A DNA stretch of 64,000 nucleotides, from contig NW_004457715.1 in the NCBI RefSeq assembly GCF_000203815.1, positions 248,001-312,000 of the forward strand, written 5' to 3'. A model generated the notes under the pieces. It did not search any database and was not told the origin of the DNA. It saw only the letters and a program-made list of their open reading frames with translations. Positions 33,946-60,902 of the stretch are shown here, one piece after another (the first letter of the stretch is position 1; the number at the start of each line of letters is the position of its first letter). The stretch is from Cavenderia fasciculata (lineage: Eukaryota; Evosea; Eumycetozoa; Acytosteliales; Cavenderiaceae). The translations under genes and the position numbers were made by a program.

Positions 33946-36900
33946 CTAATCATCTTTATCTTTATGATTATTATCTTCATCATCATTATAATCACGATGA
34001 AATCTTAATATAGTTGGGTTATTTGTGTTGTTGTTGTTATTACTGTCACTACTATTATCTTCAAATTCTGTAAGAGGTATAAATTTAATTTGACGATCAG
34101 TTTTTTTGAATACAAAACAACTAAGTATTGCTAATGCACCAGATGTCATTAATACAATACTTGCAATAAAGTACCATGACATATGTTCTTCTTCTTTTTT
34201 GTCGGACGTTTGACTATTCGATGATGGACATTGACTAGATAGATCAATTTCCAATGGCACGAATTGAGGATCAATCAAACATAGTTGACATTGTGGAAGA
34301 TGAATACCAATCAATGCAATCGATTGTTGATCATTGATTCTAGTTGTGTTGATTAATTCTATTTTGGAGTACGTTGATTTGTTGTTGTCTGATATTACAA
34401 ATGGTAGGAATTGTCCAAAGAATTGAATATCATTGGAAATGATTCGAATAAATTCAATTGAATCACTATCTTGGAATGATTGGAATGTTTCCACTTGATT
34501 GATTGATCCATCACATCCAATAATAGTTTGATTATTATTAATTGTGGTTGAGAATAGTACAACGAGATGTGGTGATTCTGATACTGTTGAATATGGCCAA
34601 TCTTTAATTGATACTGTTGATTTAATACTATTATTACCAATATAAATACTTTCATCTCCAAATTGAATCGTTCTACTATTATTTGATACTTGAATAGTTG
34701 ATATAATATTTGTATTATTAAATATATTATTATTTGTCAATGATAATTGATATTCTAATGATTTTAATTGATTGTTTGTTGATGTATCAGTATAATTATT
34801 CCAATTATTAGTTGTATGTAATTCTTTAATTATTTGATTATTAATATCTAATTCTTGAATGGCAACTAAATCAAATTGAAGTTTATAACTAACATGAGTA
34901 AATGATATAGTTGGATTACTTGAATTTACTAATACTTTGACATCTTTTAATAAAACAAATAATTAATAAACATATAAGATAGGGATTAATCTTTTTCTTT
35001 CTTTTTTCATTACATACTTTCATCGGATGATATTTTAAATTTACAATCATCATACCAATCCAAACCAACACATTGACATATACCATCAACACATTTACCA
35101 TGACCACTACAATTATTAGTTCTAACCATGCATTCCTCATTACTTGGTGATGGATATGGAATGAATAATATTGTATTGGATGAATAATTTCCATTTTGCA
35201 TGTTGACAGTGACATTTGTTTGTCCAGATACAAGTAGAGTACTATTAAAAGTACATTGAATCATTGTTTCATTTGATTGTTTAATAATCGTACAAATATT
35301 CGTATTATTATTGATATAGATTAATCCTTGATTTGAATTAACTCCAAAATATCCATTTAAAATCATTGTTGTTGGTGGGAATGTTGGTGGTATTAATTGA
35401 ATTGATGTTACTATTTAAATCAAAGTTAAATATTTAATATATAAATCATTTTTGGAGTATTGGATAGATTATAATATAATTTATAATTACTTACTTTTTG
35501 TACTTGAAATAGTAATAGTTGATTGTGCATCTCCATCAGCAACTTGAACTTTAACAATATATACTCCTTGAGGAGGAGATTGACTTAAATTACATTTAAT
35601 GTATGTTGCATTGGAGTCTGTAATAATACAACTATAACTACTACTACTAATACTACTACTACTATTTATATATATTTTTCCTCCTTGAGTATCTTTACCA
35701 AAATACCCATTTAATATTAAAAATGGGAATTCTATTGAATGGATTATTGATTCAATATTTACTAATATAGATTGAAATAATTAGTTAATATAAATGAAAA
35801 TAGATTACTTAATTGTTTGATTATATATCTATATCTATATTTATATTTACTTGGAGCAGGAATATAAAATGGAGCAAAGTTGTAGTTTCCATTGGGAATA
35901 TTTAGATTTAATTTTGTTGGACCAATTGTTATTGGTTGTTTTTCAAATTCACATTGAATGTATGTTTGGTTTGATTGTATGATTGTACAACCACCAACAT
36001 TTACATTTTCATCTTCCAATGACGTAAATGTTAGCGTTCCATCCATTGAATTAAATCCAAAATAACCATACAATGTTAGATTATTAAATGGTCCATATGG
36101 GGGATCAAATTTATATGATTTGATTTCAGTATCTAAAAATATAAATAAATAGAATTAATAAATATATTAAATAAAAATGTATGTAAAGTTTTTGGATACT
36201 TACGTTTTGTAACAATATCTGGATCATTAATTGTTTGATTTTGATAACTATTTGATATTTGTATTGATAGATTTGAACCATTTGGTGGTGATGTGACTGT
36301 ACATAGAGTGGTATTTGAAAAAAGGTCAAATTGTATAAAATGACATATTGAACCACCAAAAAGTATAGATGGTTGGTATTGTGTAAGAGGATTGACAATA
36401 TCATAGAATATTGCAATTGAAATGGCTTGATACTCTGGGTTGTATGGGTCTACCATAACACTGTGAACTTTAAATCCAACCTCATTAATATTAAATGGTA
36501 TGGGTTGTCCAGTTGACAAAAATGTATAATTCTTTTGTTGACTTAAACCTTTATCCAAATCAATTGTTCCTCTAAAGGAAAAAGAAAAAAAAGATAATTA
36601 ATTAATATTAAAATATATTATAAATATATATTTTGAAGCATACTCTAATTGTTTGTTTGGATAAATTAACTTTAAATTAGAATCAAAGTCACTCCAACCA
36701 ATCATATTGCCTGAGATTGTGAATCTTCCTTGAAAAGAAACTAAATCATGGCTATCAAATTGAATTAATTTTTCTAAAAAATTAAATAAATTAAATAAAT
36801 ATAATAATATTAGTACAAACGTTATATTGTTGTTGACAATGTCCTTTAGTCGTCTATATCAACATACTACAATCCGATGGCAATGGTAATGGTAATGAAG

Positions 36901-38560: not shown

Positions 38561-41500
38561 TTATTGTGAAGAACCACTTGTTGATGGTATTGTTGTTGCT
38601 CCACTTGTAGTTGTTACACTTGTAGTTGTACTGAGACCTGAATCGGTTGATGGGTCTGTTGTTGTACCGCTTGTTGATGGTATTGTTGTACCGCTTGTAG
38701 TTGTTCCATCTGTAGTTGTACCACTTGCTGTTGTTGTACTGAGGCCTGAATCTGTAGATGGGTCGGTTGTTGTGCCAGTTGTGGATGGTATTGTTGTGGT
38801 TCCACTTGTAGTTGGTCCTGATGTGCCGCTTGTTGTGGGTCCACTTGTTGTTGTTGTAGTTGTACTGAGGCCTGAGTCTGTTGATGGGTCTGTAGTTGTG
38901 CCAGTTGTGGATGGTATTGTTGTGGTTCCACTGGTGGTAGTTCCTGATGTTCCATCCGTAGTTGTCGTTGTACCACTTGTAGTTGTACTGAGACCTGAGT
39001 CGGTTGATGGGTCGGTTGTTGTGCCAGTTGTGGATGGTATTGTTGTTGTCCCACTTGTGGTAGTTCCTGATGTTCCATCCGTAGTTGTCCCTGATGTACC
39101 ACTTGTAGTTGTACTGAGACCCGAGTCTGTTGATGGGTCTGTTGTTGTACCAGTTGTTGATGGTATTGTTGTGGTTCCACTGGCGGTAGTTCCTGATGTT
39201 CCACTTGTTGTTCCTGACGTACCACTTGTAGTTGGTGGGTTTGTTGTAGTGGTGTCTGTGGTGGTTGAGTTACATGCCCCACCAGTTGTTCCACCCCCAC
39301 TTGAACTACTAGTGGTCGAGGTGGTACCGCTCGTACCGCTACCTCCTGTGGTAGTTGTTGTTGTCGTAGCCCCTGTTGCCGTAGCCCCTGTAGTGGCCTC
39401 TGTTGTAGTAGTTGTATTAGAACATGGGTTGCTACCAGTGGTAGAGTTTGTTGAAGTTCCTGTTGTTTCTGTTCCAGTTCCAGTTCCAGAGGTTGCAGAA
39501 GTCCCAGAGGTTTCTGTCGATGTACCACTTGTTGGTGTTCCAGTACCAGTAGTTGAAGTTGCAGAAGTAGATGAAGAAGAACCGTCACTAACATAACTAA
39601 TCGTATAAAATGGATAGAGATTCAAACCATTCCATTGCATTGTTATTGGTTTGGTGTAGTTTCCACTAGTGTATGGTGGGATGACACAATTCATCGTGTT
39701 GGCACCACCACTCACCAATGTACAAGACATTGCTACACCATCCAATGTAAATGTTGGTACTGCATAACTATATATTTGATTTATCACAACATTTCCTCCA
39801 TTTGATTGATAAGTATTTGATCCAAATAATACTAAATAAATAAAATAAAATAAAATAATTAATATTAATAATTAATTGTTTGTTTTTTTAAAAGTGATAC
39901 ATACAAGGATCTAAAATTTCAATTGAACCATATTGAATATTTGAAACTATGGTATACTCTGTGCCAGTTGGATGATAGATTCGTACAGAGTCATCGGGAT
40001 TGGTGAATACGATAGATTGATGTTCACCAAGTAAGAAAGCAGCTTTGGTGATAGATGTCGATGGCCATCCAATATTGTTCAAGTAGGATGGTCCAAATTT
40101 ACCGTATGTGAGCGAGAGAACGGCCGATGGGTTGGTAGTAGGGGCAGGGTACTGACTGATAGAAAGAGTACGTGAAGGTGGCACATTGAGGAATGCTAGT
40201 GGAGTAGAAATGGTTTGTACAATGTACATTGTTGACTCGGCAACTGAAATCTTTTTGTTATTATAGATGGTTGTGGTGACGGGTGTTGATGATAAATCAG
40301 ACACACTAATAACAGTGTCACCTGGTACATCCATTGTAATAGTAGAGTATGGTAGTTGAGTGATAAATGCAACCTTTGTAATCGATCTACTTTCTCCAGG
40401 GAGTACAGATACAACTGTAATCTTTAAGTTTACATTGACCGAGGTTGAAAAACCAAATGACGTAAATTGTTCAAGTGTATCGAGAGCACCATTCATATTG
40501 GTATCGATGAATGGAGAGATAACGAGGTTTGTGGCGTACGAGATGACTAGATTACCATTACTCGATGTAGCAGTTTGAACATTACAATAGGTTGGGAAAT
40601 GTACTTCCGAGTATGTAGGTGTTGGGAACAAGGCTGGATTATAAATGGCCAAGTTAAAAGACCCATATTGTAAGTTGATCTTTGTATTACCATATTTCAA
40701 ACTACCATAACATCCATTGGGTGACTTGGCAATAGCAGAAAAGTCAATATTAACAATTCTAGTAGATGCTTCAAGGATGAATGAACGAGAGTTGATTGGT
40801 AGGATGTGGTCTGGTGTACTACCCAAAACACGAAGTACGTACGATCCACGAGTTTGGACATTAAAATTGTACTTTCCTTCAGAGTTTGTTGTAGTTTGGT
40901 AAAAGAATGTAGAGGTTGGAGATTGCTCCAATGTAATGAGTACACCTCTTAGAACAGGTTCTAAAAGATCATGTACATTGTTTTGGTTATAGTCATAGTA
41001 GAGTACACCTGAGATTGCTGTAATAACAGGTCCAGTTGACCCTGTTGTCATTGATGTAGTTTGTGTTCCACTTACTCCAGTTCCTCCAGTTGCTCCACCA
41101 TCCTCACCTCCACCATCATCTCCTCCACCATCTTCACCTCCACCATCTTCTCCACCACCATTTGTAGTTCCATCACCGCCTCCATTGGTAGTTCCATCAC
41201 CGCCTCCATTGGTAGTTCCCGAACCACCATTGGTAGTTCCTGGATTACCTCCATTAGTAGTTCCATCACCTCCACCAGGTGGTATTCTAGGTCGAACAAA
41301 CTCACCTGTCAATGTCATTGGTATCCACATACCAGTACTATCCTGCATATTAATGCTGAGTACAATAGTAGATGTAATAATACCAGTTGCAGGTGTCAGA
41401 ATACCATGTATACCAATACCAACAATACTAATGGCAGCACCTGGTAAGAAACCAGCTACACCACTTGCAAGTGTCAGAGCGACCGTCACGATAGGTCCAG

Positions 41501-44500
41501 CAATCACAACAGCACCCGATGCAAAGGTAGTTGTAACAGTTAAAAGTGCAGTGATTGTAATGGTTGAAGTCTCTTGGTTGATTTTAGTCTCTTTAATTTC
41601 TTCAACCGATGCTTCTTCCTCTGTCACTTGATCGGGTGGGTTCTCAGAGCTAGAGTTTCCTCCTCCTGCTGTAATAACAATGATACCAGTTGTAGCTGGT
41701 GTAGTAGTAGATGTGGTGGATGGTTCAGAGGTGGGTTGTTCTGTTTGTTTTGGATTAACTGTGAATGTAGATCTACCAGTTTGTCCATGGAAGGTGTTTA
41801 ATACTTCATATGACCCAGGTCCCATTTGTCCAATCGTACAAGATACACTGGACGATGATGCCGATGACACTGAGCATGTCTGTCCACCAACAGTCACCGA
41901 TGGGAAATCAGTTGCTAGACCAAGATTAGATCCTGTTAAAGTAAGTTGGGTTGAAGGTGCGTCAGATGTAATGACAGGTGGTGCAACTCCAAATATATTT
42001 GGGTCACGGTACTTGTATGTCAAACGATTAGACTCTTGTCCTCCAACATCAACATAAACCTGTTTGTTTATACCACCTCCACTAGGTGCTGTAACAGTCA
42101 CTGATGTACCGTCGGTTGATTGAGTGACAATAGTCACTTGTGTACCATCCATGTATACTTTAGTTTCACCGCTATCATCTTCCTTTAAATTCTTTCCATT
42201 TAAAGTGACTGATTCCCCATTAACACTAATTTGGTCGGGACTAATAGTATCTAGTTTGGGTGGCCCATAGAATGTAAATGTTACATTGGTATCGTTTGAT
42301 TGTTGGTTACCAGCTGTAACCTTTACTATCTCCTCACTCTCCAATGTTGTAATGGCAGTCTTGCAAATGATTTCAGTGTGATCTTGATTGGTAGATTGTA
42401 CAGTACAAGTAGTAGTATCACCAATCTTTACAGTTGGTTCAGGACCAAAATTCTTTCCTACAATAGTAACTGAATTTTCTCTACTATTTCTACCTTTAGT
42501 TTTTGTAATACTATTTACTTTTGGAACTAAAATTAAAATAAATAAAATAAATAAATAATAATTAGTAGTTTAAAAAAAAAAATAGTTTCTTTAAAAATAA
42601 TATTTTTGGTTTGACTTAACATACTATCATAAGAATAAGTTTGATTATCTGCTGCAGTAGTTTGATTACCAACATATAAGATAAATGTCAAATCTTTTCC
42701 AACACCAGATGGTGGTGAACATTCAATTCTTTGATTTGAAACCCATACCATATTGGTGCACTGATGATCGTTGATTTTAATGTATGATTCATCTTGACTA
42801 CGAGGTGATACACCTTGTGGTACAAAATTATCTCCTTTAATTGTAATTCTAAAATTATCACCTCCTTTTGTATTTCTTTCTCCTTCAATACTTGAAATAC
42901 TTGGTTCTAAATGAAAGTAAATAAAAGAAATAAATAATTAATTAATAATTATTTTTTTTTTGTTTTTTTTTTACAACATACTTTGATAAGAGAAGAGGAT
43001 AGTATTATTTGATGGATTAGTTTGATTACCAACAGTCACTTGTAAAGTATAATTGGCTCCAATACCAGGTTTAACTTGACATGTTGTTGTAGTTGAATTT
43101 ATCCAATTAATAGTGTCACATAATAAAAGGGAGGGGGTGGTGGTTTGGTTAATTTTAACATTACTATAGTCTCCAGCCGATACATTTGTTGGGACAAAGT
43201 TGATACCAGTTATAGTGACTAGTGATCCACTAGTCTTTGACATTTCAGTCGATGATATATTGGGAGCAGCATAGGAAAAGGTAAATTTAGTGCTGTTTGA
43301 TTGCATGTGGTTGGTTGAGTTTTGTGCTCCAATTACAATATCCAAAGGTATATCTTTTCCAATACCAGGTGGTGCAACACCAATAATTTGTGTTGAGTTG
43401 AAGTAGTTGACTGTCACAAATTTAGTGGTTTGGTTACCCAACCATACATATGTGTAGTTGGAAGACCCCTCCAACAACCCGTCAACATACTCGTCCGATA
43501 CAGGATCGAGGTATCCGACAACCAACTCATTTGGTACAAAGTTGGTACCTGTAATAGTTACATTGACACCACCATCAGTACCAACGTTGATAGCACCGTC
43601 GACGTTAGAAATAGTCGGTTGCAAGTACCCAATAAATTGAGTAGCATAATTTGAAACGACGCCTGCAAATGATAGATTGACATAGGTGTCCATACCAATA
43701 CCAGGTAATAGTTGACATCGCATACACTCAAAGTCAATGGTTGTACGGTACGAGTCATCGAGTAGAATGTATGGTTCAAACTGATCACCTTGCCCAAGTT
43801 GATCACCAAACAGTTCGATGGTGGGACGAGTCGTTTCAGTCTGTCCGTCAGTACTAACAAAACTCTTGTTTGAGTAGCAATAGTCTGCAGCATCCTCACA
43901 ATCGACAACGACAATGTCAAAAATAGTGACGATTGGGTACTCCTCGTCAGACATTGCTCCGAGACCAAGATCGGTACCTACCACCCAAAAGTATCCACCT
44001 TGTGCCGTTTGCATTGGTTCTTGGACGACTTGCAAGATGACGGGTGACAAATAATTGATGACAAACGATGTTTGGGTTGAGTTTTGTCCAGATAGAGTTA
44101 CAACGACAAGTTGATTCGAACCAAACCCTGGGGGTGTGGAGAATGTTGCTTGTGTGTTACTTTGACGATCAGTGGCACATGTAGCACCACCAACAGACAC
44201 TGATAATTCACCTGTCTGTCCGAAATTGAGACCTGTTACAGTAATAATATCATTGCCTGCAGTTGAAGATGTTGTGGATGATAGAGATTGAATGACTGGT
44301 GCATTATAAGATACTGTGAATTGGTTTTGACTTGATACCTGACTTGCAGCAACAACCACCGATAAAACATTATCCTTTCCACTACCAAATGCAGTATAAA
44401 TAAGTAGGTCTTGACGGAGAGCAGTAAAACTAGTTACTAAAAGACGTCCTTCAAACAATTGAATAGATGATTTGTCAGAGGTTAGTGACAAAAAGTTACT

Positions 44501-47500
44501 ACCAAAAACCGATACCGTTGAACCAGCGGTATTCAATCGAGTATTAGATGCAGGTACAACATTACTAATGATTGGAGCATCATAAGTAAATGTATAGGTT
44601 TTTAAAGGTTTCTCTACTGGAATTAAAGAACCAGAACCTTGTTTAGAGTAAGTTACTAATTGTAATCCAATACCAGATGGTGGTTTACAAACAAGTGTTT
44701 CCAAGAATGGATGAGGTGTATTGGTAGCAGGGGCAGTAGTTACCACTTGACCAGTACAATCTAATCCACCAATCTTGATTGATGCTTGTACTAGTTTACG
44801 ACCAGTAATGGTTATTCTAGAGGTTGATGGTGGTACGGTTGGTGATGATAATCCATCCATTGTAAATACAATCGGTCCACTATCACATAGATCAAGTGCC
44901 GATCCAGTCAGATAAGTGGAGTATGTTTGTACAGTTGCCCAACACAACTTGTCTTTATGTTTGACAATGACCATACCAATTGAATCTTGATCGACGACAG
45001 TACCAACAAACAATAATGACAAGTCATTAAAGGTTTGAGAATGAGTGGCCAAATTAGATTGATACTCTAGCATCTGAGTGATCAATATGGCTCCCAATGG
45101 ACTGACTGGTCTATTAACCTCTTGAATCATACGAACAGTCTCGCATAATCCATCGTCTTGAACCGACAACAACGACTGAACATTTCCATCATTACTATTT
45201 ATAAATTGTGACAATGTACTACCTTCATACATAAACTTTAAACCTTGGTTTCTTAAAACCTGGTTACTAATAGTACTTGGGTCTGTTGTCCATGCAGCAA
45301 AACTCTTTCCCAGGGTATCCCAACCAACTTGATCGATTTGTTCAAGACATACTCTTTTTGATAATAAATAATCACCAATTGATGGATTCAATGGTATCTA
45401 AAAATAAATAAAATAAATAAATATTAATATATTATTATTTAAATTAATTAATTTTTGATTGATTTTGATTTTGTACATACAACTGGAGGATTAGAAATTA
45501 ATGGACATATATCTTGACATTTAAATATATTATTGTATTTCATAATACGTTGAGAATGTAGTATTTGGAGTTGAGGGTTGGATGTAGTATCTTGATGATC
45601 AATTGGTTGTGAGTTTGACAAGAGTACTTGATGAACTGTATCAATAAATGAAATGGTATCATTTGGAGTAGAGGTGGATATGTTGATAGCCTTTAAAATG
45701 GTGTGGAGGTGAATAGTGTTGCCTTGATTATTATCATTGTTTGGTGATCGACGATTCAAGACATCGGAATAATCATCATTCTTTTCATCGAGTAAATCCC
45801 AAAACATGGCAGTTACCCAACCTTCACTATACAACCCTTGTGTTTGAATGGTCAATGGGGTTGTAAATAATTCAATGTCTACAGTCTCTGAACAAGATGC
45901 ACCAAATGATTCAAGGGTTGATAGAGGTAGTCCAGTGGGATAAGACAACTCTCGTAACTTCATAGAGATGGCATTGACAAGACCTCGGAGAAGTGGTGGA
46001 TAGGCGGTAGAGTCGATCGTCGACACTAACGATGATGATGGTGAAAAGAGTGGAGATGCAGCACTTTGGAACAGGGGGTTGATAGTCTTGACCACATGAT
46101 ACGTGAATGATCTCATCAAAGAATTGATGCAGAATAATTGTGGGCTACCAGCAGTCACGGCAATACCAAATGGTGCGTTGGCAGACCCATTAAAATAAGC
46201 TGTGTTGGCAATAGTATCAACTACCAACACTATATTATTTAATCGACCAATATCTACATGTCTCGATGCAGTATCGATCAACAATTGGACGGTCTTGTAG
46301 ATAATGACGGTAATGTCTAACTCTGGTGGGTTATATACTGACGGTTTGGTTGATGTCATTGGAACGGTTAAAACAACGTTATTGTTATTTACCATCTTGA
46401 AACCAGTTTGAGTATCTTGTAATTGCAAGAGGACGGTTACAGCGAACCCCAACTTGTCAAATGCAAGTGATGCCTTTGGATTAGTTGATGTTGTGGTAGT
46501 CTCTCCAATAGCTTTCATACAATCAAGGTTACATTCACCACGATTACTGTATACTTGTACGACGGTATTACGAATCAACGAGTCTTGAGTGGCACGGATA
46601 AAAGGTACAACGTGAGCCAATACAAATGGTGCATCAACATCAATCATCACCTTTCCTTTGAATTGGTTTGGTCGTTGGATTTGTACCTCATGAACACAAT
46701 CTGAATAACTTGTACATGGTACACTGACTTGTTTAAATGCTGACATCTTCAACAATGCTGCCAAGTTTCTTATATTCTTGTTTAAGCAAACTACAATACA
46801 TCCATTCTTTTAAATAAATAAATAAATAAATGAATCAGTAAATAATATTAATATACTTTGTATATAATATGTATACATACAGTGCATGAAGAATCGGCAA
46901 GACAAACAGAAGCATCTATAATTGAGATGGAAAAAGCCAAGTGACTGTCATCCAATTCACTGCTCCATTGTGATACATCAATTGGTACATTATATTTGCG
47001 AACAATATCAATTGGTAATTTCATCTCTGTAATACCATCAAATAATCCACCTTGCAAAGGTACTCCTACTTTCTAAAAAATAAATAAATAAATAAAGTTA
47101 ATATTAATTTTATATTATATTATATTTGTTTGTGTTTGTTTGTAATATTATACATACTGGAATAGTTATTGAAGTTAGAAATGTTGGAGACCAAGCATAT
47201 TGAGCAAATGAACCATAGATGGAATAGCCAAGTGTTGGATTTGACTGTGATTGAGAGGTTGGTGGTGGTGGTGGGGATGTTGGGATGGCACTAGTAACCA
47301 TATTGTAGAGACTGGTGAATGGAGTGGTTGGAAGAAGATTGCTTGCATAAAAGAATGGGTTGGCAGCTTTAATAACTGGTACAAGTGTTGAGATATCTTC
47401 AAATCGGTGACAGATAAAGGTGTGACCACGTGATATGTCACCGTCGACAGCTGGATCATGTTGACTTGGAAGATGGTAGTCGGCAGGGAACCAGTTGGTC

Positions 47501-48030
47501 GGATGAGTCGCAGGTAGTTTGATCAGATATCTAGAGGTGGGAGACCGTGGTACTGGAAATCCAACCAGAGAATGTTTGATGTGAAAACCTGCTGCTGCTG
47601 GTGAGTTGGGGGAGGACGGGTCACCAACACCGATAATACCTCTTGGTCCTTGTAGTGGGGATCGGTTGATTGCTACGTCTCCGGCGATCGACGTACTGAC
47701 TGTACCAACTGGAATATCGTATAGATCATTCCATGGCATATCATTGTAGGCTGTGAATGATGGCAGTGTGCCATCAGAGGCAACACTCAATTGTGAAAGT
47801 GTACGTGCGAGTGCACCTGTCGTAGGATTCGTTATATCATTCTCTATAGCAACAACTGCGTTATTACTATCAGAGTAGATATACATCTTTGATTGTGGTA
47901 GTTTCTTTATTACCCACCAATCTACCGATGTACCATTATTAGATAAACAACTCGGTGGACTGGCTTGAACTACTACGACTACCAAAGTAATTAAAAATAG
48001 TAGTAGAGTAGTAGTAGTATATGACAGCAT
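38561..48030 (-). CDS. Giant secreted protein: DNase II-like domain, TIG repeats, Cna-B-like module, Thr-rich tail
   Basis: Seven exons: 48030-47158, 47072-46881, 46806-45481, 45397-42982, 42906-42625, 42526-39905, 39831-38561; 2993 residues, sum exact. Signal peptide (LLLFLITLVVVVVQA), then a DNase II-like domain: CLSNNGTSVDWWVIKKLP, GFHIKHSLVGFPVP (His153, first catalytic His), RGHTFICHRF. The second catalytic region reads ELDDSHLAFSI (residues 330-340) where active enzymes have DHSK, so the His seems replaced. Residues about 400-790 are a module ending YSEGWVTAMFWDLLDE, also in the plus-strand partner. Then TIG/IPT repeats (about 1000-2010), a hydrophobic stretch (2018-2087), a Gly-rich acidic linker, a Cna-B/SdrD-like module (GVLYYDYNQNNVHDLLEPVL), and a Thr/Ser repeat tail. 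No C-terminal membrane anchor. Confidence 0.85.
38570..39600 (-). repeat. Thr/Ser-rich mucin-like coding minisatellite
   Basis: About five imperfect copies of a unit containing IPSTTGTTTDPSTDSGLST followed by variable TTTSGTSG runs make the C-terminal 340 residues of the giant minus-strand protein. Composition predicts dense O-glycosylation. The antisense strand is also open (VVVPLVV-type frame), a by-product of the repeat. Confidence 0.85.
41090..41285 (-). repeat. Gly-rich TTNGGG and EDGGG linker repeats
   Basis: Short tandem repeats encoding TTNGGGDG then EDGGG, between the hydrophobic segment and the Cna-B-like module of the giant minus-strand protein. Likely a flexible, acidic spacer. 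Confidence 0.8.
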
Positions 48031-48851
48031 GACTATAAACTACTATCTCTCTCTTCTATCTCTCTATCTCTCTCTTTTGTTGATGATGAAGGATAATGTT
48101 ATCTATCTCTCTTTATTTTGATGGTTGATGAAGGAGGTTGATGGTTTGAATGATCGCATGATCATCATCATGTTTGGTTGTAAAGAAGAGGAGGGGAGGT
48201 GATTCGTTTGGGTTGGTTGTCGTTATCTTTATCATTATTGTTGTGAAGACGAGGAGGATGGTGTGCACCATCCAACCTAATATTTGCATTAAACGAGTAA
48301 AAGAGATATTTTAGCAATCTATTTTCTCGAGATACCCTGTCGTCTTCGACTAACCGCAAGTGCAACTTCACAAAGACAAAGGAGGAAAAAAACCTTTTTT
48401 TTTTTTTTATCTCACGCGCGATAATGCAAAGATTGCTTGCAACAACACCAATCATAACTATGAACTTAACATGTAGCGAGTTGCGGTCTTTTGTGTATAA
48501 TATCTATATTTATCGTGCATGCACTTTCAGGCAACGACAATGATGTAAACAACATGCGAACGACGATCAAGTTTGTCATCAACAAACCAACCAAACTAAC
48601 TTCACCATACCTAGGGTTACAACAATAATAATAATAATGAATTCATTGCACATGTGATCTTTCTACACGGTCGAGAAGAGAATCTAATCTGATTCGTATC
48701 CCGCAAATGATTCCTCATCTTCATCATCACTTGTTCATGTTCGTTTCACTACAACAAACAGTCTAGTTATTATAATCAATACACTAAAGTACTTAGTATA
48801 CAACAAAGTATAGCTATATAGACATATATACAACAAAAAAGAATAATAATA
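48031..48851. promoter_or_regulatory. Shared divergent promoter of the two giant DNase II-TIG genes
   Basis: About 820 bp between the two start codons. Less AT-rich than other spacers here. It holds a dyad with 8-bp arms GGATGGTG/CACCATCC at 48256-48273 separated by TG, G-rich blocks near 48186-48205, CT-rich tracts just upstream of the minus start, and a poly-T run near 48390-48410. No convincing ORF; the frame at 48168-48455 is not supported by composition or splice context. Confidence 0.5.
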
Positions 48852-51800
48852 ATGATACGGTTTAAATTGCCGCAATTTATATCTTTGATATCATTATTAT
48901 TATTGGTAGTCTTGGTACTTGTGGTGAATGGCGCACCACCAACCATCAATATGGCAGCCAATGTGTTTATCGGATACAAAGGTGCTGTTAAGGTTTACAC
49001 TGTTACTGCCGACACTGTATCAGTGTACTCTGTCATTGTTTCAAACCCTCCCATTTCTCATCCTCCCGTCGATTTAGTTCCTCCCGTTGCTAGTGGATCA
49101 CAACTAACGATCACATTCCCAGCACTGCCTGGTGATATACCTGCACCTGGTACTATAGATGCTACTCTAATCATTTTCAATGCTGCTGCTGAGAAAACAA
49201 CTATTGCATTTAAATATTATGGTATGTTAAATGAATTCAATTAATTATAAATGAATTTAAATTAATTGAACTAAACTAACTCTTTCTCTCTCTCTTATAG
49301 CACCAAAGATTACTACAATATCACCAACTGGTGGATTCAAAAGTGGAGGTACTATCATAACGATCACAGGATATAATCTCTACTTTGCAGGACTACTCAC
49401 AACTATTACTCTTGGTGGTGTTCCATGTACCGTCGTTAATGTTCCTACTGCTGCATCAATTCAATGTACTACACCTTCTTTAATTGGTATATCTTCAACA
49501 TTTGTTAAATTACACTTGGAGGTTGATGGTCTTCCTGCTACCACTGCAGCTCCTGAATTTCTAAATTATGATTTAATGGGTATGTTTATTAATAATTATT
49601 AACATTAATTTAACAAATTATTGTTTATTATTTATTTATTAAATTATTAATTAATTGTTTATTTAATTTTAGAACCTCAAATAGAAGATTTTGAACCAAA
49701 ATTTGGAAAGGCTATAGGAGGTGACTTGTTGATGATTACACTCAATGATAATCCTGATCCCCTTCCACTACTTCCAACATCTATTATGATTGGTACTGCT
49801 CAATGTACTAGTATAAATAGACCCTCTCGACTGGTACTCACTTGTCTAACACCCACCATTTCAGACCCATCCCAACTATCATTCAAAATCACAATCAACT
49901 TTAACACATTTGTAATTACATCTTCATCAACTTTTAATTATCTTTGTATGTATAAAAAAAAATAATAATAATAGTATTTATTATTTTAATTAATTTAATT
50001 TTTTATTTATTTCTTTTAGATCCAACAATCACATCAATTCAACCTGAAAGTGGATGGGCAGGAGGAGGAAAAGATATTATATTTAGTGGTGACAATTTAT
50101 TTGCAGCAACCTCTATCATTGCCAATATTGGAGATGAACTATGTACCGGATGTACTGTCATCACTGATAATACTGTTATTCCAGTATCTTACAAGATTAA
50201 GTGTACTACTCCCGTTCGTATTGCTCCATACAATCTTGTATTATCAAAGATTGTAACACTCAAACTCAACAATCTTGAAGTATTATACCCTCCAACTCCT
50301 TTGAAATATACTTTTATTCGTAAGTCTTTATCATTTTATATTTTTCATAAAGATTTCAAACTAACATTTTAATCCCAATAGAACATTCAATCAAAAAGAT
50401 AACACCAGAAAGAGGATCACCCGGTAGTACAATAACAATAACAGGAACCAATATTAAAGATGGAGTTGTTAAAATCAATAGTTTATTATGTCCAACAACT
50501 GCCTATGTTGCTTTAGCGTACACTGACGAGATCAAATGTACCGTTCCAACACTATTTGGAGTAAATGATGTTGATGTCAATGTTGTTATCTTTGTTGATA
50601 ATAACCCTTCAATTCTTTCATTACCTTTTGGTGTAACAACCCTTCCTAAATTCAGATATTATAGTATGTAGAAACTAAAAAAAGACACAGGCTATTTTCA
50701 ACAACAATATATTAATTATTATTTATTATTTGTTTAATTTGTAGAACCAATCATTTCAAATACAGAACCTTTACTATCATACACCAAAGGAACATTTGTA
50801 GTGACTATTCAAGGACAAGCTTTCTATGATATCACTCAAGTCAAATATGGTGATACTGTACTTGACTCAACCAAATTCAATGTGATTGATAACAACAAAA
50901 TCTATCTTCATGTGTTTAATGACCTTCCAACAATAGCTCATCTTCCAATAACCCTCACTACAACATTTGGTGATTATTCAAAAGTTGGTTTTGGTGTTCA
51001 ATTTGTAGAACCTTCCATTTTGACAATGGATACTACAAGAGGAATAGCATCAGGAGGTACAATAGTAAATATTCAGTTGGATGGAGTTGTTGAAGGAAGT
51101 TCATTTGAAATTAAAATAGGTGATAGATTATGTCAACCAACTATGGTTGCACCTGCACCTGTATTTGGATCGATTCAATGTATCATTCCACCTTCAAAGT
51201 TTGAAGAACCTGAACTCGATGGAACAGTCAGTGAAGATATTTCTATTATTGTCGGTTTATTGGGTTCAACATTGCCATTAACCTCATCACCATCTTCACA
51301 AACCTACACCACCACTTTAAAATACACCTATGAAGGACCATTGATTAATAACATCACACCTGCCAAGTTATCAAAGAGTGGTGGTCAAGTTACGATTCAT
51401 GGTACCAATCTAGTCAATCCCACCAAAGTTACAATTGGCACTGACAATTGTATGATCAGTACCACACCGACTCCACCAACTCCAACACTAATCATTTGTA
51501 CTCTACCACCAACCTTTTTATCAGGTTTACTAAATACCAATGTTATGCTTTCATCTGGTCTTTTAGCAAATAAGATACAAATTAATATCGATGCAAATTG
51601 TAAGTAAAAAAAATTATAAATTATTTATTTATTATTTATTAATATTTTATTTATTTCTATTTCTAATTATAGTACCAACCATATTGAGTATTTCACCAAA
51701 ACAAGGACAGAAATCAGTAAATACTAAATTGGATGGTAGTTTTATGCTTATAACCATTAATGGTATCAATCTTGGGACAACAACCACAACAACATCAATC

Positions 51801-54800
51801 AAGATTGGGACGGAAACATGTGTCTTGGGAAGAACAGGAACAATTGTTACACCAACCCAAATTATATGTTGGAAACCAATCAGTACTGTATCAGGACCAG
51901 CCAAAGTTGTTGTTAAAGTGAACGGTATCGATTCTATTGATGAGGTGTACTACCGACAGAATGGTCTGTCATGCTTTGGACAACCAGAGGCAGATGGATC
52001 AAACTCACCAGTCGACTGGTTCTTTATCAAGAAATTCACACACACCAAAGTAAGCGGTTTCAACACCAACAAGGCATACATGTACACTGATTCATCGGTC
52101 AAAGACAAAACAATGGAATTTAAAACTGACTTGGAATTTGTAAACGGACCATTATCATTAACCTATCACCAATGGTTGCAAGATACACAATACGGTTACA
52201 TGTTTTTTAATGATCAGACTGATGGACCAACTAGTGCATCTTCTGATTATGGACATGTTAAAGGAATGCTGTTTTGGGAGTTTTCTCCAGATGGTAGTCG
52301 TTTAGAATCGGGTATACATATAATGCATTCACAACCACACTTTCCAGTTTTCGTTGATGTACGTGGCACTCCAACCAAGCCAGCACACACCACCTATGCT
52401 ACATCGGAGCAACCATTCTCTGCAGATACCTTGTGGGCTGGAGACAGCAGTACTATGGGACAACATTTCTTTTGTTACAAACTCGATGCTGCAGGTGTTG
52501 ACAGAGTAGCCGAATACTTTATTAAAAACCACGCCTTTCCCGTTGGTCGACCAAGTATTTTTGGAGCACCTCTCGTCACACCCCTCTACCATGGAGCATA
52601 CCTCACAACCACCACATGGCTCAAAGAATTAATTATCCTTACAACTCCTGCTCCAGCAAGAAATGCAAATTATGGTCTTGCAAAAATGGATGAATTTGCT
52701 GATGTAAGTAGTAAAGAGTAGTGATTAATTCCTTTTCTCAACTCAAACACTAATTTTATCCATTTCCTTTAAATAGATTTGTCAAAATAATATTAATCAA
52801 GTTGATTTAGGTAATATTTGTTATTGGGTAGTTAATGCAGTTGTTCCTGGGTTTGGTACAGCTCATTATTTTGAAAAGACAAATGTGATTACAAGTCCTG
52901 CACCTGTTGCAGTGACATTTGGTATTCCTGTCGACCCAGCACGTGTACCTCCATTTTTTGGCGGACCAGGAGAATCAAGATTAATTGTTGCTAATAGACC
53001 GAGACCACTTGCTGCCGTAAGGACTCCAGAAAAGTTGGTTCAAGATGGTCTCGATGCCTGGGAGGTAATGGTCAATTACTACAAAAGAAGTTTCTTTGTA
53101 TCAACTTGGCTTAAAGGTCCACCAACTCTTTTCCCAGTACCCGGTATTTATAATGTTCATGTAACTCGTATGTATATCATCCAAGAAAGAAATCATATAT
53201 CTATATATAATATATTAATAATCAATCATCATCTCTCTCTCTCTTTCTTTCTTTTAGAAATTCCTTTACCAACTGATACATTGGGAAAGAGAGGATATGC
53301 ATATTTTAGAAATAACGATCATTCCAAACTTGCATTCAACTTGGAACCAAAGATTGGAGCAGGTGCACTGAACCAAGGTGAAAATATGTTTTGTTTTGGT
53401 GATACTAATCGTCACTTGAATCAACCAAAAAGAGGTGGTGGTATGTTGTGTATTCAATCACCTGAACTTGTTTATCAATTCAATCGTTTTGTTTCCAGAT
53501 ATGGATCAGTCGTATGTATTCATTATTTAAATTAAATAATAATTATTATTTTAATTTATTTATATGACTAACTCTTAATTCTTTACTTTTATTCCATTGA
53601 CAGACACGTTTTGAGGAAATGGTTGATAGTTCGCCAAGAGATATTAATCTTCCTGCGCCTGCAGGTGTAACCACCATACCATTAACATTTAATCCAGCGA
53701 ATGTGTTTAACCTTGTCAATCGTAACCCAATCAACTCGATTGCACCTACTATCACAAGATTCGCACCAGGTGATAATGTTTTTGGTACTGGTGTTATAGT
53801 TCCAGCCCCCACCATTGCACCAGCTACAATGACTGATATTCAATTAACACAATCATTGCAGTATTATGTCTTGTATAATGGAAATCTACCAGTTATGGAT
53901 CCAGCCAGACCTTTAAGATATTTGTTTGTCGGGTCATCCTATATTGTTCCAGTTGACCATAAAACAGACAAGTCTGTGACCTACACTGTATCTGTTCATC
54001 AGACCATTAGAATGGAAAGAATACCAACTTTGGGATACACTGGTGAGTTGACATTCGATCTGTATGATTATACAGTGGATACAACCAACCCTGTACCTGT
54101 CAATGTCTATACTCCCAAGACACCCAATTTACTCGTCCCCACGACCAATGTACCTGTTGATAGACTATTACCACCAATCAAAGTTATGCGTACCGATCTT
54201 ACTCCAACTCGTGTTGGTCATGAATTTGAATTGGTGTATCCCGATGCCCACTTTAAATCAATCAAAGGAATCAAAGCACAAGATGCCTTTGCACCTCTAT
54301 TTGTTGCATACAGTCAAGGTGTAGCTGGAATATGTTTAATTGGTGATATTGATCCCATTAAAGGATGTACATTGGAAAAGGCCATTAGATCAAGTGCACC
54401 CACCGTCACTGAACTACCTGTAACCCCTGCATCGCCACCACCAGTACCAGTCAGTCTACCTATTGCCTATGGAAAACCTAGAGAGGTAGAAGTAATGTAT
54501 TCAACAAGAATATTCGAGTTTAGTGGTACAGACAATACATTCAAGATTCTAAAGTTTGTCAGTCTATTCCAAGAAGAGCTTCGTAAACTACCACCTCTAC
54601 TTAGTGGATTGGCCATATCATCACCCAATCAATTTAACATTGCGATTGACACTACTATTGCTCAATCAACAGTAACAGTCGATGGTACAACTATCATTTT
54701 GAAATCTGATCAACTTTGTGCCGATGAATTATCGTATCTCCTTTTACTCACTGTCGTTGCAAGAGAATCAAACATCAAGGGTCATGCCAGTCCATTAGCT

Positions 54801-57800
54801 TATGGAACTAGTCCACTCAACTGGTCCAATGGTATCCTTATTGCCATTTCAAAATTAATTTCAAATGTATGTATTTATAATAACAATAATAATAATAATA
54901 ATAATTATAATTGCTAACAAAATATTTTCTATCATTTTTATTTGCAGCAAATCACAGGCATTGTTCCTGGTACACCACCTAGTTTAATTGGTGGATGTTT
55001 TACTGCAGTCGGTGCTATTGATTTGGTTACATTTGCTGATAATGTCAATATTGGATCATTCAAAAATACTGCTGCTGCCACTTGGTCACTAGTAAATTCC
55101 CCTTATCCCGATTGGTCATCGGATTCAATGTTTAAGTTATTATTTAAAGTCAAGACAACCGATCATATTCAATCATTTGCTGATTTCTATAATATGAAGA
55201 GACTACCACCATTGCCAATCTTGTATGAGAAATACATCATTATTCGTCCATTTAGCGCAAAGATGGATACCGACGATGATGAACCTGCAGCTCGTCATAT
55301 GATGTCATTATTCACGATACCCACAACAACAACATCAGATATTGAAACCAACCAAAATATAGTATCACCACTCCAACAACTATTCAACTTTATTGATCAA
55401 GCTGCATTTACACCAGATGAATTATTACAACTTGACAACCAACAAATCAACCTATTAAAAGAATCATTGGACAAATGGGTTGATATTTCATCAGAGAATC
55501 AAGGTATCAAAGTATTACTCAAAAATCCAATCACTCAAACATCCAACCAAATCATCAAATACCTCGATGAAGTCAACTCTGTTCAATATGGAGTGTCTTC
55601 TGAACACATTGAATTATGTTATTTGGCAATCGGTGGTGGAGGTCAACAACAACAACAATACAAGATTGAAATATGTTCACCAATGTCAATCGTTTGCCTC
55701 ACCAACACATTGAAACGTATTCAAATGACAGCATCGACTCTTTCAAAGAACTTTGGTGACTTGACATTTTACTATTCACCATTATCATCAGATTATGATG
55801 GATATGTTTCTGAAAGTGGAGCAGTGGATGGTATCTTGATTGCAACACTCAACTCCAAGTTATGTGATGCTCAAATGACTACTCTTTCATCGTTCCAATC
55901 GAATTCATTCTCGACTCTTTGTACTCAATCAGGACCGATCATCACCAGTTTATCAACAAACAATGGTGCATCAATTGGAGGATATCAACTATCGGTCAAT
56001 GGATATAGATTCCAATCAAATTTGAATGTCACAGTTGGTGGTGCTAAATGCTCACAAACAACATTCCAGACATCACAACTTGTACAATGTGTCGTTCCAC
56101 CAAACACAGGCATCAACCACCTCGTATCATTCTCATCGAATCACATTCAATCCACTCCATTCTATTTCTCATACAATCAACCAATAATCAACAGTGTATT
56201 AGTATCAGATATAACAAGATCAGTATCAGAGATAACAATCAATGGTGCTAACTTTGGTAATAGTGGTAGCAATGGTAATGACAATGCATTGTACATTTCT
56301 ATTGATCAATACCAATGCTTTAATATTATTCAACATGTTGACTCCACCATCAGATGTAGAATTAAAAGTAGAGTTGCTGTCAACAACTTTGTCAATGTTT
56401 CAATATCCAACGACAATAGCAATGGTATTAGACAGACATCAGTATTCCATTTGAATCAAATCACAAATACTCAATTCAATTATTCCTATGTTCCAAATAT
56501 CGTTGCAGTATTACCAAGTCATGGGTTTGCTCGTGATTTGGTGACAGTGGTTGGTGATTCATTTGCCAATGGAGATGCATTACCATTGTCATACTTTAAG
56601 GATACAAGATCAACAGTCCTGCCACCAGGTGATATGGGTGATGATATCTTGACCGTTCGAGTACCACAAATAACTCGCGACTCTCAACTCTTGGTGTCAG
56701 TCGATAATATTGGTAGTAATCTCAAGTCATTCACTTTGGATCAACCTTTTATTGAATCAATCTCACCAAGTCGTGTTAGTTCATCAGGTGGAGTCATTAT
56801 CATTAAAGGAGGTGGATGGGGTATGTCTCGTCAAGCTATTGACTATGTCAAACTTGGTTCTACACCAATCAGTTGCACTCCATTCAACAAATTCCTCGAA
56901 TGTATTGTTCCACCAAGCACTGGTGAAGTTAATACTCTCACTGTCTCTTTTAGTGGTAGAGTTACGACATCATACTTGTCCGATTACGGTATGTCGTATT
57001 CAACACCTCGTATCACATCATACACTGAATCGTCAGGAGTACTCACAATCAGAGGTGTCGACTTTGTCAACAGTGGAACCTCAACATCACCTCAAAACAG
57101 TTATTTGAATGTTGTATCAAATATGAATCGACCAATATCATATCAACAGCTCACATTTGTCAACAAGACAATGATCACAGCCACTCTCACATCTCTCTTG
57201 CCAGGAGAATCAGTAGAATCGGTTCAAGTATTAATATTTGGAATGAAATCCAATACTTACTACCATGCACGATATGGATGTGATGGATGGGTTAGAAACG
57301 GTGACTACAACTATATCCCACTACATTATGGAGTTTATCCATTAAAAGATTATGGATTCTGTGTCACTCCTTCATGTATTGCATCTTATCAAAAATCATC
57401 TGGTGAAGCTGGTTGTATCATTGTAGTTGATAGTAATACTGGTGTTCTTACACTATCTTATGGTATGTTATAAATTAATTAATTAATTAATTTAGAAAAT
57501 TAAACTAATTTATTTATTTATTATTATTATTTAATTATTTTAGAATTTACAATTAATCTAAGTACATATGTTGATGCTCATATTGATGGTGTATTTAATA
57601 ATACTTTTGACACGAGAGGTTCTGAATTTACCAATTCAATTATGTATATTTTGTCATACCCAACTGCTGCTTCTACTTTGGTTACTCGAAGATTCTATCC
57701 ATCAATGTCAAGAATTGATTGCCCATCAAATTGTCTCATCAATGTATCTTCGACTAATGCAAGTTATATACCAATTATAAATAATTGGAGAGCAGACTTT

Positions 57801-60800
57801 ACAGTCAACAAACAACCACAATCGTTTGACATTGGTTTCTACGACAAGAGAATATTTGGAGAACCAAGATCCATATTCTTTGACAATACATTCGGTAGTG
57901 GAAGAAGTATATCACTTCCATATGGTCGTTTCCGTATCTCATTTGAATGTCAATCGTACACCATCTCTGATCCTACCAACTCTATCAATGTTGCTGTATA
58001 CTCACCTGGTATTGTAAATCCTACTATTTACGCACCCCCAGGTTCCAACATTAATCAACAAGCGACAACATTTGATGTCTATCGTAATGGTATATTGAAT
58101 GCTTATAGTGGAGGACTTAATTCATTGGGTCAAGCTATTAGTTTTGAAAATATCTATCATCCAAGAGTGCCATCTTATTATATTGGAACTTCACTATTAG
58201 TTTGTTCAAGCATACCACCAAGTAACATTTGGACGTGTACAGTACCACCTAAAACAAGTTCAACACCTTTAACGTTTTCAACTTATTTAATGGTTGGTAC
58301 AACTTTGACAAAGCTATACAAAGAGTTCCCAATCACCTACACTAGTGTTTTAGTTGCCTCTGGCTCTGTCTTTATGGACTATGACAAAGACAATACATTC
58401 AATAATATAGATACTAAAATGGCAGGACACACAGTTCAAATCAAATCAGGTAGTACTGTATTGGCATCACAAAATACAGTGGCTGGTGCTATTGGTTTCT
58501 CATTTAGTATGGATTATTTCCCAACCAATGCTCGTATCTACATTTATCCATCGCCTGGATATTTCTCGTACATTCCATCGTTCCCATTCTCGTCTCCCAT
58601 TGTTAAAGATTTCCCAATTGCTCAATCTGATTACAAAAAATGTCAAGGATTTTTAACAGCTGGTAGTGAACAATTGAATTTGCAATTTGGTACATACGAT
58701 CTATCAAAATTTGGATGGTGTAAATCACCCTCTGTATGCGCCAACGTCATCACCTCCCAGACTTTTGCAGACCATTGCACACTTGTTTACAGTGGTACCA
58801 TGGTAACCATTGATTACAATGCACCGGTAACACTCACCTTTTGGCATAGTAACACGCCGGGCCAAACATATGGAGTGTATGCCAATTCGCCTCCTCCATC
58901 GGTCACCCAATACGTTGTTTTAGCTCGATCCATCATGAATGGTGTCTATGTTGTGTTCAACTATGCCGTTCCAGCCAATGGAACTCTCAAATTTAATGTA
59001 CCCTATGGCACAACAAACCTTGTGATCACCACACCCAGTATCTTTGACCATTTAGTTGATGGTACCACCATTGACTTTACAACCAGTTTAACTGTACCAT
59101 CATACACCAAGACACTAGGAGTCTTTTCTCCAGCCACCCACTATTACAACAGTGCATCAGTCAACATTCTCAGTCTTCCATTAGGTTTCTACAACTTTAC
59201 ATGGTACTCGAAACAAGGTCAAATCAAATCATTCAGTGCACATCCATCAATGAGTATTTATGTTTGGAATAATGCAGGTACTCTTTATAATGTTGCTAGA
59301 AATGGAAATAATATTCAACTTCCAGATACACTTGCATTGACTGTTGAAAATAGTCCAACTGGTATGTATCAACACAAATGAACAAAAACAAAATCAATTA
59401 TAAATTAATATATTAACACAATACTTTTTTATTTATTAGATTTATACAGTTTCACAGTCCCACCAGAAGGATTACAATTTAGAATGCCAACTCCTTATAC
59501 CTATGTTCCATTCCTTTTTATTGAAGGATTAGAGATTGAATGTGAAAATGCCTATATTACTTGTAAAATTCCATCACATATTGGAGGTACAACTTCAAAA
59601 GCAAAATTGAAACATACTGGAACGTTCTTTTATCACACTTGGACTATTACCTATCAAAAGAGATTCGAAATTCCATCTGCTGGATCAAGTTATTTGGCGG
59701 CAGGACAATCGTTGACATTGGGAGTAAACGATTTGGGAGTGATGATCAAGTACCCTCTCAATCCAGGAGTTGGACAACCATACACCTACTTTTCTCTCTC
59801 CCCTACAGGCATCAAGATTGGTTTCCAAGCAGGCCCAACCAATAGTCACATCTACCAGGTACTTTCTTCTCAGTATGACCAATCATTTACTGCACCTTTC
59901 TCATTCAAGGTAGAGTCTGACTATAACATTGGATTGTGGGGTACCAAATCAGGAGCACTATCCCGTGGTGCTTGGTATCTTGACAAATCTCCTCTTCCTC
60001 TCCAATCATCATACTTGCAAGTTGTTCGTGACGGAGTCATTGTTCAAAACAGCGCTGGAAGGGTAACATGGTCTAGATTAAAACCACTCAATTATTCTGG
60101 TCTTGCACGTCCACTTGGTGCTCAAATAGACTATCTTGATGCACTTGACACCAACAAGAACACGTTGTTTAAAGGTCAATTCCTAACCAATGGTGAAAGC
60201 TACCTTAGGGTTGATACTGACGGAGGTATTCGTCTCTACAATGACAACTCATTTACAACCAAAGTTTGGGAAGCTAAATTTACTGGTGGTCTCATTATTC
60301 TCACTTTAGCAGAAAAATGGGTATTGACTAGCACTAATCTATGTGCCTACGGTCAGTCAGGAATTTTTCTGCCTGTCATGTTGGGATGCCTTAATTTCTA
60401 TGGTCAAGCTCGTTACCTATTTGTTGCCCCACCAACATACGGATCGTCACAATTTTCAATGACAGTGACCAATTATTTTGGAGCACTTGTTTACTCTCAA
60501 GGATCTGCTCCAACCTCGCCATACAAGATGATCCCAGGTACCTTTATGGAGTTTGGTGATGCACTGATTCATGGACAATTCCTCACCAACGGAGTTGAGA
60601 AACTCTACATTAAACCAAATGGAGTGTTTAGAAGAGAAGCATCTGGAAGTGAAACAACTCTTGCATCTGGTGTAGTCAATGCCATCTATGCTTCCATTCC
60701 TCTTCAATTTTCCGACCTCATTACAGTAACTCCACCAGGTACTTATAAATACGTATTCTATCCACCACCTGGTCACAATCTTCCCAATGTAGATCCCGTC

Positions 60801-60902
60801 ACAAAACTTGTCTTTGTAACAGCTGCTGGAAGAGGTGCTGGAACCTCTAACCCTGCTGCTCAATTTGTTATCTATGATCAAAAATATTGGGCAAATATTT
60901 AA
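48852..60902 (+). CDS. Giant secreted protein: TIG repeats, intact DNase II domain, Cna-B-like modules, B-lectin-like end
   Basis: Thirteen exons: 48852-49221, 49301-49579, 49673-49945, 50020-50319, 50382-50663, 50745-51599, 51673-52703, 52777-53167, 53258-53511, 53604-54866, 54948-57462, 57544-59361, 59440-60902; 3697 residues, sum exact. Signal peptide (ISLISLLLLVVLVLVVNG), about seven TIG/IPT repeats (to residue 880), then DNase II: SCFGQPEADGSNSPVDWFFI, HIMHSQPHFPVF (first catalytic His about 1004), MGQHFFCYKLD, YFRNNDHSKLAFN (second His about 1281), GDTNRHLNQPKRGGGMLCIQ. These match animal DNase II closely, so acid endonuclease activity is likely. Next a module shared with the minus-strand giant, more TIGs (2095-2450), a Cna-B-like module (SGSVFMDYDKDNTFNNID), and in exon 13 bulb-lectin-like repeats (SSYLQVVRDGVIVQN, GESYLRVDTDGGIRLYN). 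No membrane anchor. Confidence 0.87.

Follow-up and report, generated by a model that had tools for sequence, protein, structure and literature searches.

The 64,000-nucleotide window analysed here, positions 248001-312000 of contig C9 (NW_004457715.1) in the 31.0-Mb, 21-contig genome of Cavenderia fasciculata, contains a head-to-head pair of giant genes, gene A (C9A) and gene B (C9B), in both of which a deoxyribonuclease II (DNase II) domain is joined to TIG repeats. Unless a contig label precedes them, coordinates refer to the window. Gene A lies on the forward strand at 48852-60902 and comprises 13 exons encoding 3697 amino acids, while gene B occupies 48030-38561 on the reverse strand, with 7 exons encoding 2993 amino acids. 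These models were built with a simple splice finder, and the ends of several models in the family are unsure. A first-pass annotation, made from the letters of the window alone, had placed a head-to-head pair of this size here, and the models bear it out. The 18 introns of the two genes are short (62-98 bp) and AT-rich, with GTATGT or GTAAGT donors and AG acceptors. According to the models, 821 bp separate the two start codons (48031-48851), a candidate shared bidirectional promoter from which both genes might be expressed together. Both proteins are predicted to be secreted, as the annotation had also proposed, since hydropathy reveals a signal peptide at the start of gene A (48852-48932, + strand) and of gene B (47965-48030, - strand).

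Downstream of its signal peptide, gene A (all features on the + strand) opens with an N-terminal region and, judged by eye, about eight IPT/TIG-type repeats (48933-51962, introns included). The DNase II domain follows, at residues 884-1339 (51963-53493, introns included), where Pfam gives E 4.4e-39 and 135 bits against a curated cut-off of 23. It contains a first catalytic HxK motif, H981-V-K983 (52254-52262), and a second, H1282-S-K1284 (53320-53328), as well as a CxGDxNR..Q..GGG stretch that is conserved in the A DNase domain. Next come a module of undescribed type that is common to gene B (53509-55937; detected by hhalign) and a second TIG block (55929-57461; Pfam E 6.3e-24), in which three repeats pass alone in exon 11. 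The whole protein matches the Pfam TIG model at E 4.6e-66, with eight stretches passing, three of which belong to this later block. The region beyond (57462-59360) is possibly Cna-B/SdrD_B-like; it has no Pfam match at E<=0.01, GEVED being the best at E 0.074. The C-terminal region, up to the stop (59361-60902), probably contains mannose-lectin (MMBL) modules from about 60006, as judged from a profile of such tails.

Gene B (all features on the - strand) begins with the related domain, at residues 25-372 (46756-47958; Pfam E 4.1e-20, with exon 1 alone at E 1.4e-19). Both catalytic motifs have been lost from it, the first HxK position reading GPRG (47638-47649) and the second DDSH (46941-46952), and it is referred to below as the pseudo-DNase. 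The module common to gene A follows (44882-46755), and then a TIG block (41766-44881) that Pfam resolves into seven stretches, two of its exons reaching E 1.9e-27 and 8.9e-20; for the B protein the TIG match is E 7.8e-58, over a scan of the first 2651 of the 2993 residues, up to the threonine-rich tail. Further along lie a glycine-rich hydrophobic stretch that could form a membrane hairpin and that is present only in some B genes (41376-41561), a region that looks Cna-B-like by eye only (39625-41030), and the C-terminal end, mostly a Thr/Ser/Gly-rich repeat tail, up to the stop (38561-39624). A Pfam and NCBIfam scan of exon 6 returned TIG and a sub-threshold TgrO1-like Ig match, and nothing further. 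The repeat of the B tail gives rise to long open frames in several frames on both strands, one of which is coding in the model.

The same arrangement recurs across the genome. A search of the whole genome for DNase_II returned 33 matches, among which and around which ten A genes and nine B genes were recognised at nine loci. They are labelled by contig and by A or B: the A genes are on C9, C7, C14, C2, C13 (three pairs, C13-1, C13-2 and C13-3), C17 and C5, with a tandem copy on C9 (C9A2), and one B gene is present at each of the nine loci. Every B gene lies near an A gene, and eight of the nine loci are head-to-head, where the modelled start codons are 821, 877, 610, 687, 929, 1335, 1451 and 1182 bp apart, the last of these distances (C14) being probably nearer 0.8 kb. 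Searching the genome with the second part of the A module recovered the ten A genes and one decayed copy, and searching with part of the B module recovered eight of the nine B loci, C5B having been found through other matches. The models of C17A, C5A, C17B and C5B are partial, the starts of C9A2 and C14A are uncertain, and the C13-3B model extends into a neighbouring gene.

Several observations accompany this census. The second A gene in tandem, C9:312874-325060, lies just past the end of the window and is 86% identical overall to gene A. On C5, at about 4099000-4110000, the pair is degenerate, and C5A has a single TIG before its DNase domain. The decayed A-module copy, C2:1554336-1554896, contains internal stops and has TIG matches beside it on both strands; it is perhaps a dead pair. 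Further DNase II copies, with no recognisable TIG in the stretches examined nearby, are present at C12:1289505-1295825 (a tandem array), C1:235369 and C16:382855, and a solo copy on C7 lies inside a 403-residue open frame. With regard to the intergenic spaces, the 10-mers that they share are mostly limited to the three near-identical C13 loci, and a shared promoter motif was dropped as a candidate for that reason.

The fusion of DNase II to TIG repeats is real, and in both genes it agrees with what the first-pass annotation had described from translated frames. Within exon 7 of gene A alone, a single reading frame free of stops runs from a TIG repeat (E 1.4e-6) into DNase II (E 8e-27), so that the fusion is independent of splice guesses. 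Pfam TIG and DNase II matches share one stop-free frame in C9A, C7A, C2A and C5A, as found in a genome TIG scan in which 150 of 449 candidates were scored. In nine of the ten A genes, the stop-free frame of the DNase domain extends 99-195 codons upstream of it, part of which may be intron; in C17A, the exception, it extends 12 codons. Past the pseudo-DNase, an open frame continues for 1284 residues in C14B, 802 in C13-2B, 452 in C2B, 431 in C17B and 309 in C13-3B, and an intron or break falls within 26-77 residues of the domain in the other four B genes. C13-1B, near position 390000 of C13, shows an apparent frame break just after the pseudo-DNase when set against its two sister copies.

The module behind the two DNase II-like domains, which the same annotation had taken to be shared, does prove homologous between the two proteins (hhalign probability 97.5%, E 6.5e-12, over 412 columns, the last ~30 of which run into TIG). 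The order is the same in both proteins, DNase domain, shared module and TIG repeats, with an extra TIG block in front in A. Two trivial explanations were rejected: a mis-splicing of two separate genes is ruled out by the common frame of TIG and DNase II in A and by that of pseudo-DNase and module in five of nine B genes, and chance similarity is ruled out by the E-values and by recurrence at nine loci.

The two DNase II-like domains differ in their active sites. The DNase II active site is defined by two HxK/HKD motifs, according to the available part of PMC4148230. Residues were compared in a motif table of 23 rows, which also underlies the tree described below and which holds all ten A and all nine B domains, a Burkholderia protein, and three of the eight other DNase_II places in the genome (solo C7, C1 and one C12 copy); two more C12 copies, C16, C18 and C21 lie outside it. 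Both motifs are present in nine of the ten A domains, and neither is present in any of the nine B domains. The first histidine has become G, W, I, L or S in the B domains, in eight of which the first lysine is still present, and the closest to a working site is C2B, where the second histidine is kept and the lysine lost (HAR). The solo C7, C1 and C12 copies in the alignment carry both motifs, as does the other modelled C12 copy; C16 carries the second motif, and C18 and C21 are weak DNase_II matches whose models lack DHxK. Among bacterial relatives, both motifs were found in 17 of 19, the remaining two being cut or broken. One of the two patterns used in the bacterial scan required DH[SA]K, and the independent control is thus limited to the first motif (18 of 19).

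By its residues, the A domain is apparently a working DNase II, and the B domain is to be regarded, on the same residues, as a pseudo-DNase, catalytically dead but with a conserved fold. Residues kept in A and lost in B therefore mean that eight of the nine loci pair an enzyme-like protein with a pseudoenzyme. Catalysis in B was most simply lost ahead of the spread of the pairs or at an early point in it, with the domain retained. The annotation had presented the locus as a pair of nucleases; judged by residues, this may hold for gene A, which keeps its catalytic ones, and fails for gene B, for which the loss of both motifs rules out an active nuclease. Its remark that DNase II is normally a stand-alone enzyme is consistent, as far as open-frame length can tell, with open reading frames of 261-644 residues at all 19 bacterial loci and with the 403-residue frame of the C7 solo copy. 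From such an enzyme of about 350 residues the A protein departs both in its 3697 residues and in having TIG in the same stop-free frame. By frame length, with no domain scan, no bacterial DNase II-TIG fusion was seen, no open reading frame among the 19 loci exceeding 644 residues; the viral contigs searched contained no relative, and single DNase exons of A and B yielded nothing relevant against PDB sequences.

A and B have been inherited together. In the tree of DNase domains, the A genes form one clade (support 94/89) and the B genes another (100/99), and the same groupings are repeated in both, C17 joining C9 and the three C13 copies joining C14, with no resolved place for C7, C2 and C5. 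Pairwise distances run in parallel in the A and the B domains (Mantel r 0.949, 1 of 20000 permutations), also when one of the three C13 pairs is used and seven lineages are compared (r 0.532, 36 of 5040). Identity between deep lineages is 24-41%, which, with the matching groupings, indicates that the pairs have long been kept together; judged from the domain sequences, the locus is inherited as a unit.

The two partners have nevertheless evolved unequally. Between recent copies, the A DNase domain is 63-72% identical in four comparisons. Its identity is 0.72 between C9A and C9A2, against 0.90 before and 0.88 after the domain, and 0.64 between C13-2A and C13-3A, against 0.91 and 0.83; the corresponding values are 0.68 against 0.65 and 0.75 for C13-1A and C13-2A, and 0.63 against 0.66 and 0.72 for C13-1A and C13-3A. 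In each of the three C13 comparisons the B pseudo-DNase reaches 92-95% identity, against 78-88% for the remainder of the protein, and single intervals elsewhere in B can match this conservation. Synonymous divergence (dS) is uneven along A (C9A/C9A2, chi2 85.9, p 2.3e-12; C13-2A/C13-3A, chi2 123.9, p 1.1e-19; C13-1A/C13-3A, p 3e-6; C13-1A/C13-2A, p 0.07) and less so along B (p 0.0035, 0.14 and 0.36), a pattern as expected if gene conversion evens the A flanks while divergent DNase cassettes persist. The ratio of nonsynonymous to synonymous divergence (dN/dS) is 0.40-1.00 in intervals covering the A DNase and 0.25-0.52 in those covering the B pseudo-DNase. It is about 1 (0.96-1.13) in interval 1400-1600 of B in all three C13 comparisons, and 1.09 and 1.53 in interval 250-500 of A in two of the three. 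Such values point to faster change and are not proof of positive selection.

A profile built from the tails of C9A, C13-2A and C14A, together with an open frame on C17 that is not tied to a gene, matches pyocin L1/L2 in PDB (E 1.2e-5, 2.8e-5 and 5.4e-5), which we take to be MMBL lectin-like bacteriocins. Among single tails, that C17 frame matches B_lectin at E 0.0074 and C13-2A matches putidacin L1, both below cut-off; the C9A tail alone has no lectin match in Pfam and NCBIfam, and that of C14A none in Pfam. A B-lectin search had been proposed as a check of the annotation, and its outcome is divided, the pooled tails resembling pyocin L1/L2 and the tail exon of gene A alone lacking a lectin match. 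A mannose-lectin (MMBL) module at the end of gene A is nonetheless probable. Cna-B-like modules, as they had been called, are not recovered by Pfam in the proteins of the window, the best match of the kind being SdrD_B (E 9e-4) in the tail of C13-2A. The proposed anchoring of the proteins was not borne out either, as hydropathy gives no C-terminal membrane segment in A or B of the window. The mid-protein hydrophobic stretch of gene B is found in four of nine B models, C9B and the three C13 B genes (those of C17B and C5B being the partial ones); Thr- or Gly-rich or Val-Gly-Ala-Thr repeats stand at this position in C7B, C14B and C2B, and a common membrane anchor was dropped for this reason. Single-sequence AlphaFold runs on exon 10 and on the tail of A gave no usable model (pLDDT 29 and 31).

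Elsewhere in the window, a ComC supersandwich open frame (E 4.7e-14) lies at 33949-34962 on the - strand, about 3.6 kb from the end of gene B, and represents a further type of dictyostelid protein. The segment 18001-20000 displays a strong strand asymmetry (GC skew -0.32, AT skew -0.49), both strands carry long open frames that overlap there, and a gelsolin-repeat open frame at 15262-18039 (- strand) adjoins it.

The nearest described arrangement is that of the self-recognition genes tgrB1/tgrC1 of Dictyostelium discoideum, head-to-head TIG/IPT genes of which some genomes have several pairs. The tgrB/tgrC genes are described as paired, diverging TIG genes with a shared promoter and 1-9 pairs per genome, and one-to-one orthologues are reported only from the discoideum clade, in the accessible portion of a preprint (PMC12324515). 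Tgr proteins are single-pass transmembrane proteins, TgrB1 being the adhesion partner of TgrC1 (PMC4404348, in part); Tgr-type TIG families are said to be present in all Dictyostelia (PMC4931340), and TIG families to be large in dictyostelids (PMC4931340, PMC4334915). The A/B family has a Tgr-like layout, with TIG repeats in both proteins and eight of nine loci divergent around a candidate shared promoter. Unlike tgrB1/tgrC1, A and B of the window lack the Tgr transmembrane tail and carry DNase II, and neither a nuclease domain nor a lectin tail is mentioned for the Tgr proteins in the available parts of PMC12324515 and PMC4404348. PF24612, a Tgr-type Ig model and the only Tgr-named one to come up, scores 16.7 bits in B against a cut-off of 27.9 and exceeds it at no place in the whole genome. 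Membership of the Tgr family is ruled out by the missing transmembrane tail and this sub-threshold score.

With regard to the enzyme, the domain resembles by sequence the DNase II family (PF03265), including Burkholderia DNase II (PDB 5i3e/5unb), both HxK motifs of which are kept in nine of the ten A domains, but the bacterial relatives look stand-alone by frame length and the proteins of the window are 3697- and 2993-residue fusions. The expansion in Trichinella, of the plancitoxin-1-like type, is comparable in that 125 DNase II-like genes are predicted, one of them with a predicted HKD motif; neither a fusion to TIG, nor divergent pairs of live and dead copies, nor a lectin is mentioned in the available text of PMC4148230. 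In dictyostelids, the Gene Ontology term 'Deoxyribonuclease II activity' is enriched in lineage-specific expansions and shared among species, in a set of five to which C. fasciculata belongs; in the part of PMC8535579 at hand this is a label only, with no word on a fusion, on pairing or on lost catalysis. As for the MMBL-type lectins and lectin-like bacteriocins (pyocin L1, putidacin L1), the A tail is similar by profile but stays below the Pfam and NCBIfam curated cut-offs and is one region of a giant eukaryotic protein. Among the matches listed in the open-licence PMC literature there was no description of a DNase II-TIG fusion, which is not proof of absence; that Gene Ontology label comes closest. 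Divergent TIG pairs are already known; to our knowledge, the pairing of a live with a dead nuclease has no precedent.

Neighbouring live and dead DNase II domains carried on adhesion repeats suggest an undescribed two-part recognition or attack system. The reading we prefer, which we hold at somewhat less than an even chance, is that A and B constitute a secreted two-component recognition or attack nuclease whose locus is inherited as a unit. In A, which would be secreted and is of giant size, an apparently working DNase II is held by adhesion repeats on one side and on the other by more of them and a tail that probably binds sugar; B would be an ancient relative whose comparable stalk bears a dead but conserved DNase II fold at its N-terminal end. 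The two may be produced together from the shared intergenic promoter and then secreted, after which B might bind A, either between TIG repeats, in the way suggested for TgrB1/TgrC1, or via the paired DNase II-like domains. Adhesion between TgrB1 and TgrC1 reportedly runs via IPT/TIG domains, according to a paper title. B could thereby dock or restrain A, in a complex sitting on the cell or the matrix. The lectin tail and TIG arms would carry the A nuclease to a recognised partner, a prey bacterium or a non-self cell, and in an acid setting it may cut exposed DNA of the target, be that a rival cell, prey or matrix DNA. A more specific version appears rather doubtful: the divergent giant adhesins would form an undescribed class of two-component extracellular system in which live and dead DNase II are co-inherited as matched partners and the A DNase cassette diversifies, with one specificity per locus, serving as an enzyme-armed complex for self/non-self or prey recognition. 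Kin or food recognition, which the annotation had raised, stays a hypothesis, one that gains strength from a layout resembling tgrB/tgrC and from how far the A DNase domains have diverged.

Three alternative explanations were considered. If A and B were a matched ligand and receptor for self/non-self recognition of the TgrB1/TgrC1 kind, with the DNase folds mainly as recognition surfaces and the nuclease incidental, then divergent multi-copy TIG pairs would be seen as in tgrB/tgrC (PMC12324515, in part), and the mosaic divergence of A, with dS varying along the gene in three of four comparisons (p <=3e-6), and the intervals of A and B with dN/dS near or above 1 would find a place. The retention of both HxK motifs in nine of ten A genes is hard to explain with useless catalysis, and the proteins of the window are without a Tgr-like transmembrane tail; we consider this explanation unlikely. 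Somewhat less likely still is a role in feeding, in which surface or matrix nucleases would hold prey bacteria by the lectin tail and break down their DNA or that of biofilms, B being a duplicate that lost catalysis and turned into a DNA-binding or structural subunit. The probable MMBL tail, the secretion, size and copy number of the proteins, the digestive, acid type of the enzyme and the multiplication of DNase II copies without TIG in the same genome are all in line with it, but by itself it leaves the constant linkage of B with A and the conserved dead domain unexplained. Secreted toxins of the DNase II type are known, plancitoxin being an example, and A could be a poison-like nuclease directed against competing cells, with B as its co-inherited pseudoenzyme inhibitor or immunity partner. 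The linkage of active and inactive relatives (by residues, at eight of nine loci) and the fast-evolving DNase of A agree with such an enzyme and antidote; B, however, differs from small immunity proteins in approaching A in size and in carrying an adhesion stalk itself, and its pseudo-DNase does not diversify with A. This is the least probable of the alternatives, and a long shot.

The two-component nuclease is in turn weighed down by several findings. At C17, A and B share the + strand, where B starts at 734.2 kb and A about 15 kb further on, at 749.6 kb, and a lectin-like open frame between them (C17:747145-748878) may end B or be another gene. C5A has lost both catalytic histidines, replaced by Q and Y. 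The matches behind the mannose-lectin assignment are weak, as is the SdrD_B match in the C13-2A tail (19.8 bits against a cut-off of 29.7). The contrast between the A DNase and its flanks is strong in two of the four comparisons and weak or absent in the other two, whole-gene dN/dS is 0.40-0.63, and a lower dS there contributes to the conservation of B. Solo DNases occur on both sides of the unrooted tree, C7 and the Burkholderia protein beside B (85/81) and C1 and C12 beside A; the tree alone does not establish a single ancestor of the A/B fusion, for which the shared module argues. Descent by duplication from a single ancestral pair is enough to yield such close pairing, which does not have to reflect contact between the proteins. 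Furthermore, binding of A to B through the DNase folds would sit oddly with a domain that changes fast in A and is stable in B. A contest of the A nuclease with a factor external to the pair agrees better with the unequal evolution than does a lock-and-key match of the two DNase folds.

Outside the discoideum clade, other genes may do the work of tgrB/tgrC; A and B share that layout, with an enzyme added to it and a live/dead asymmetry that has outlasted deep divergence. If A and B form a complex, they would be an uncommon example of enzyme and pseudoenzyme evolving as co-inherited partners throughout a gene family, and if they are only a digestive nuclease array, they would still represent a new use of DNase II.

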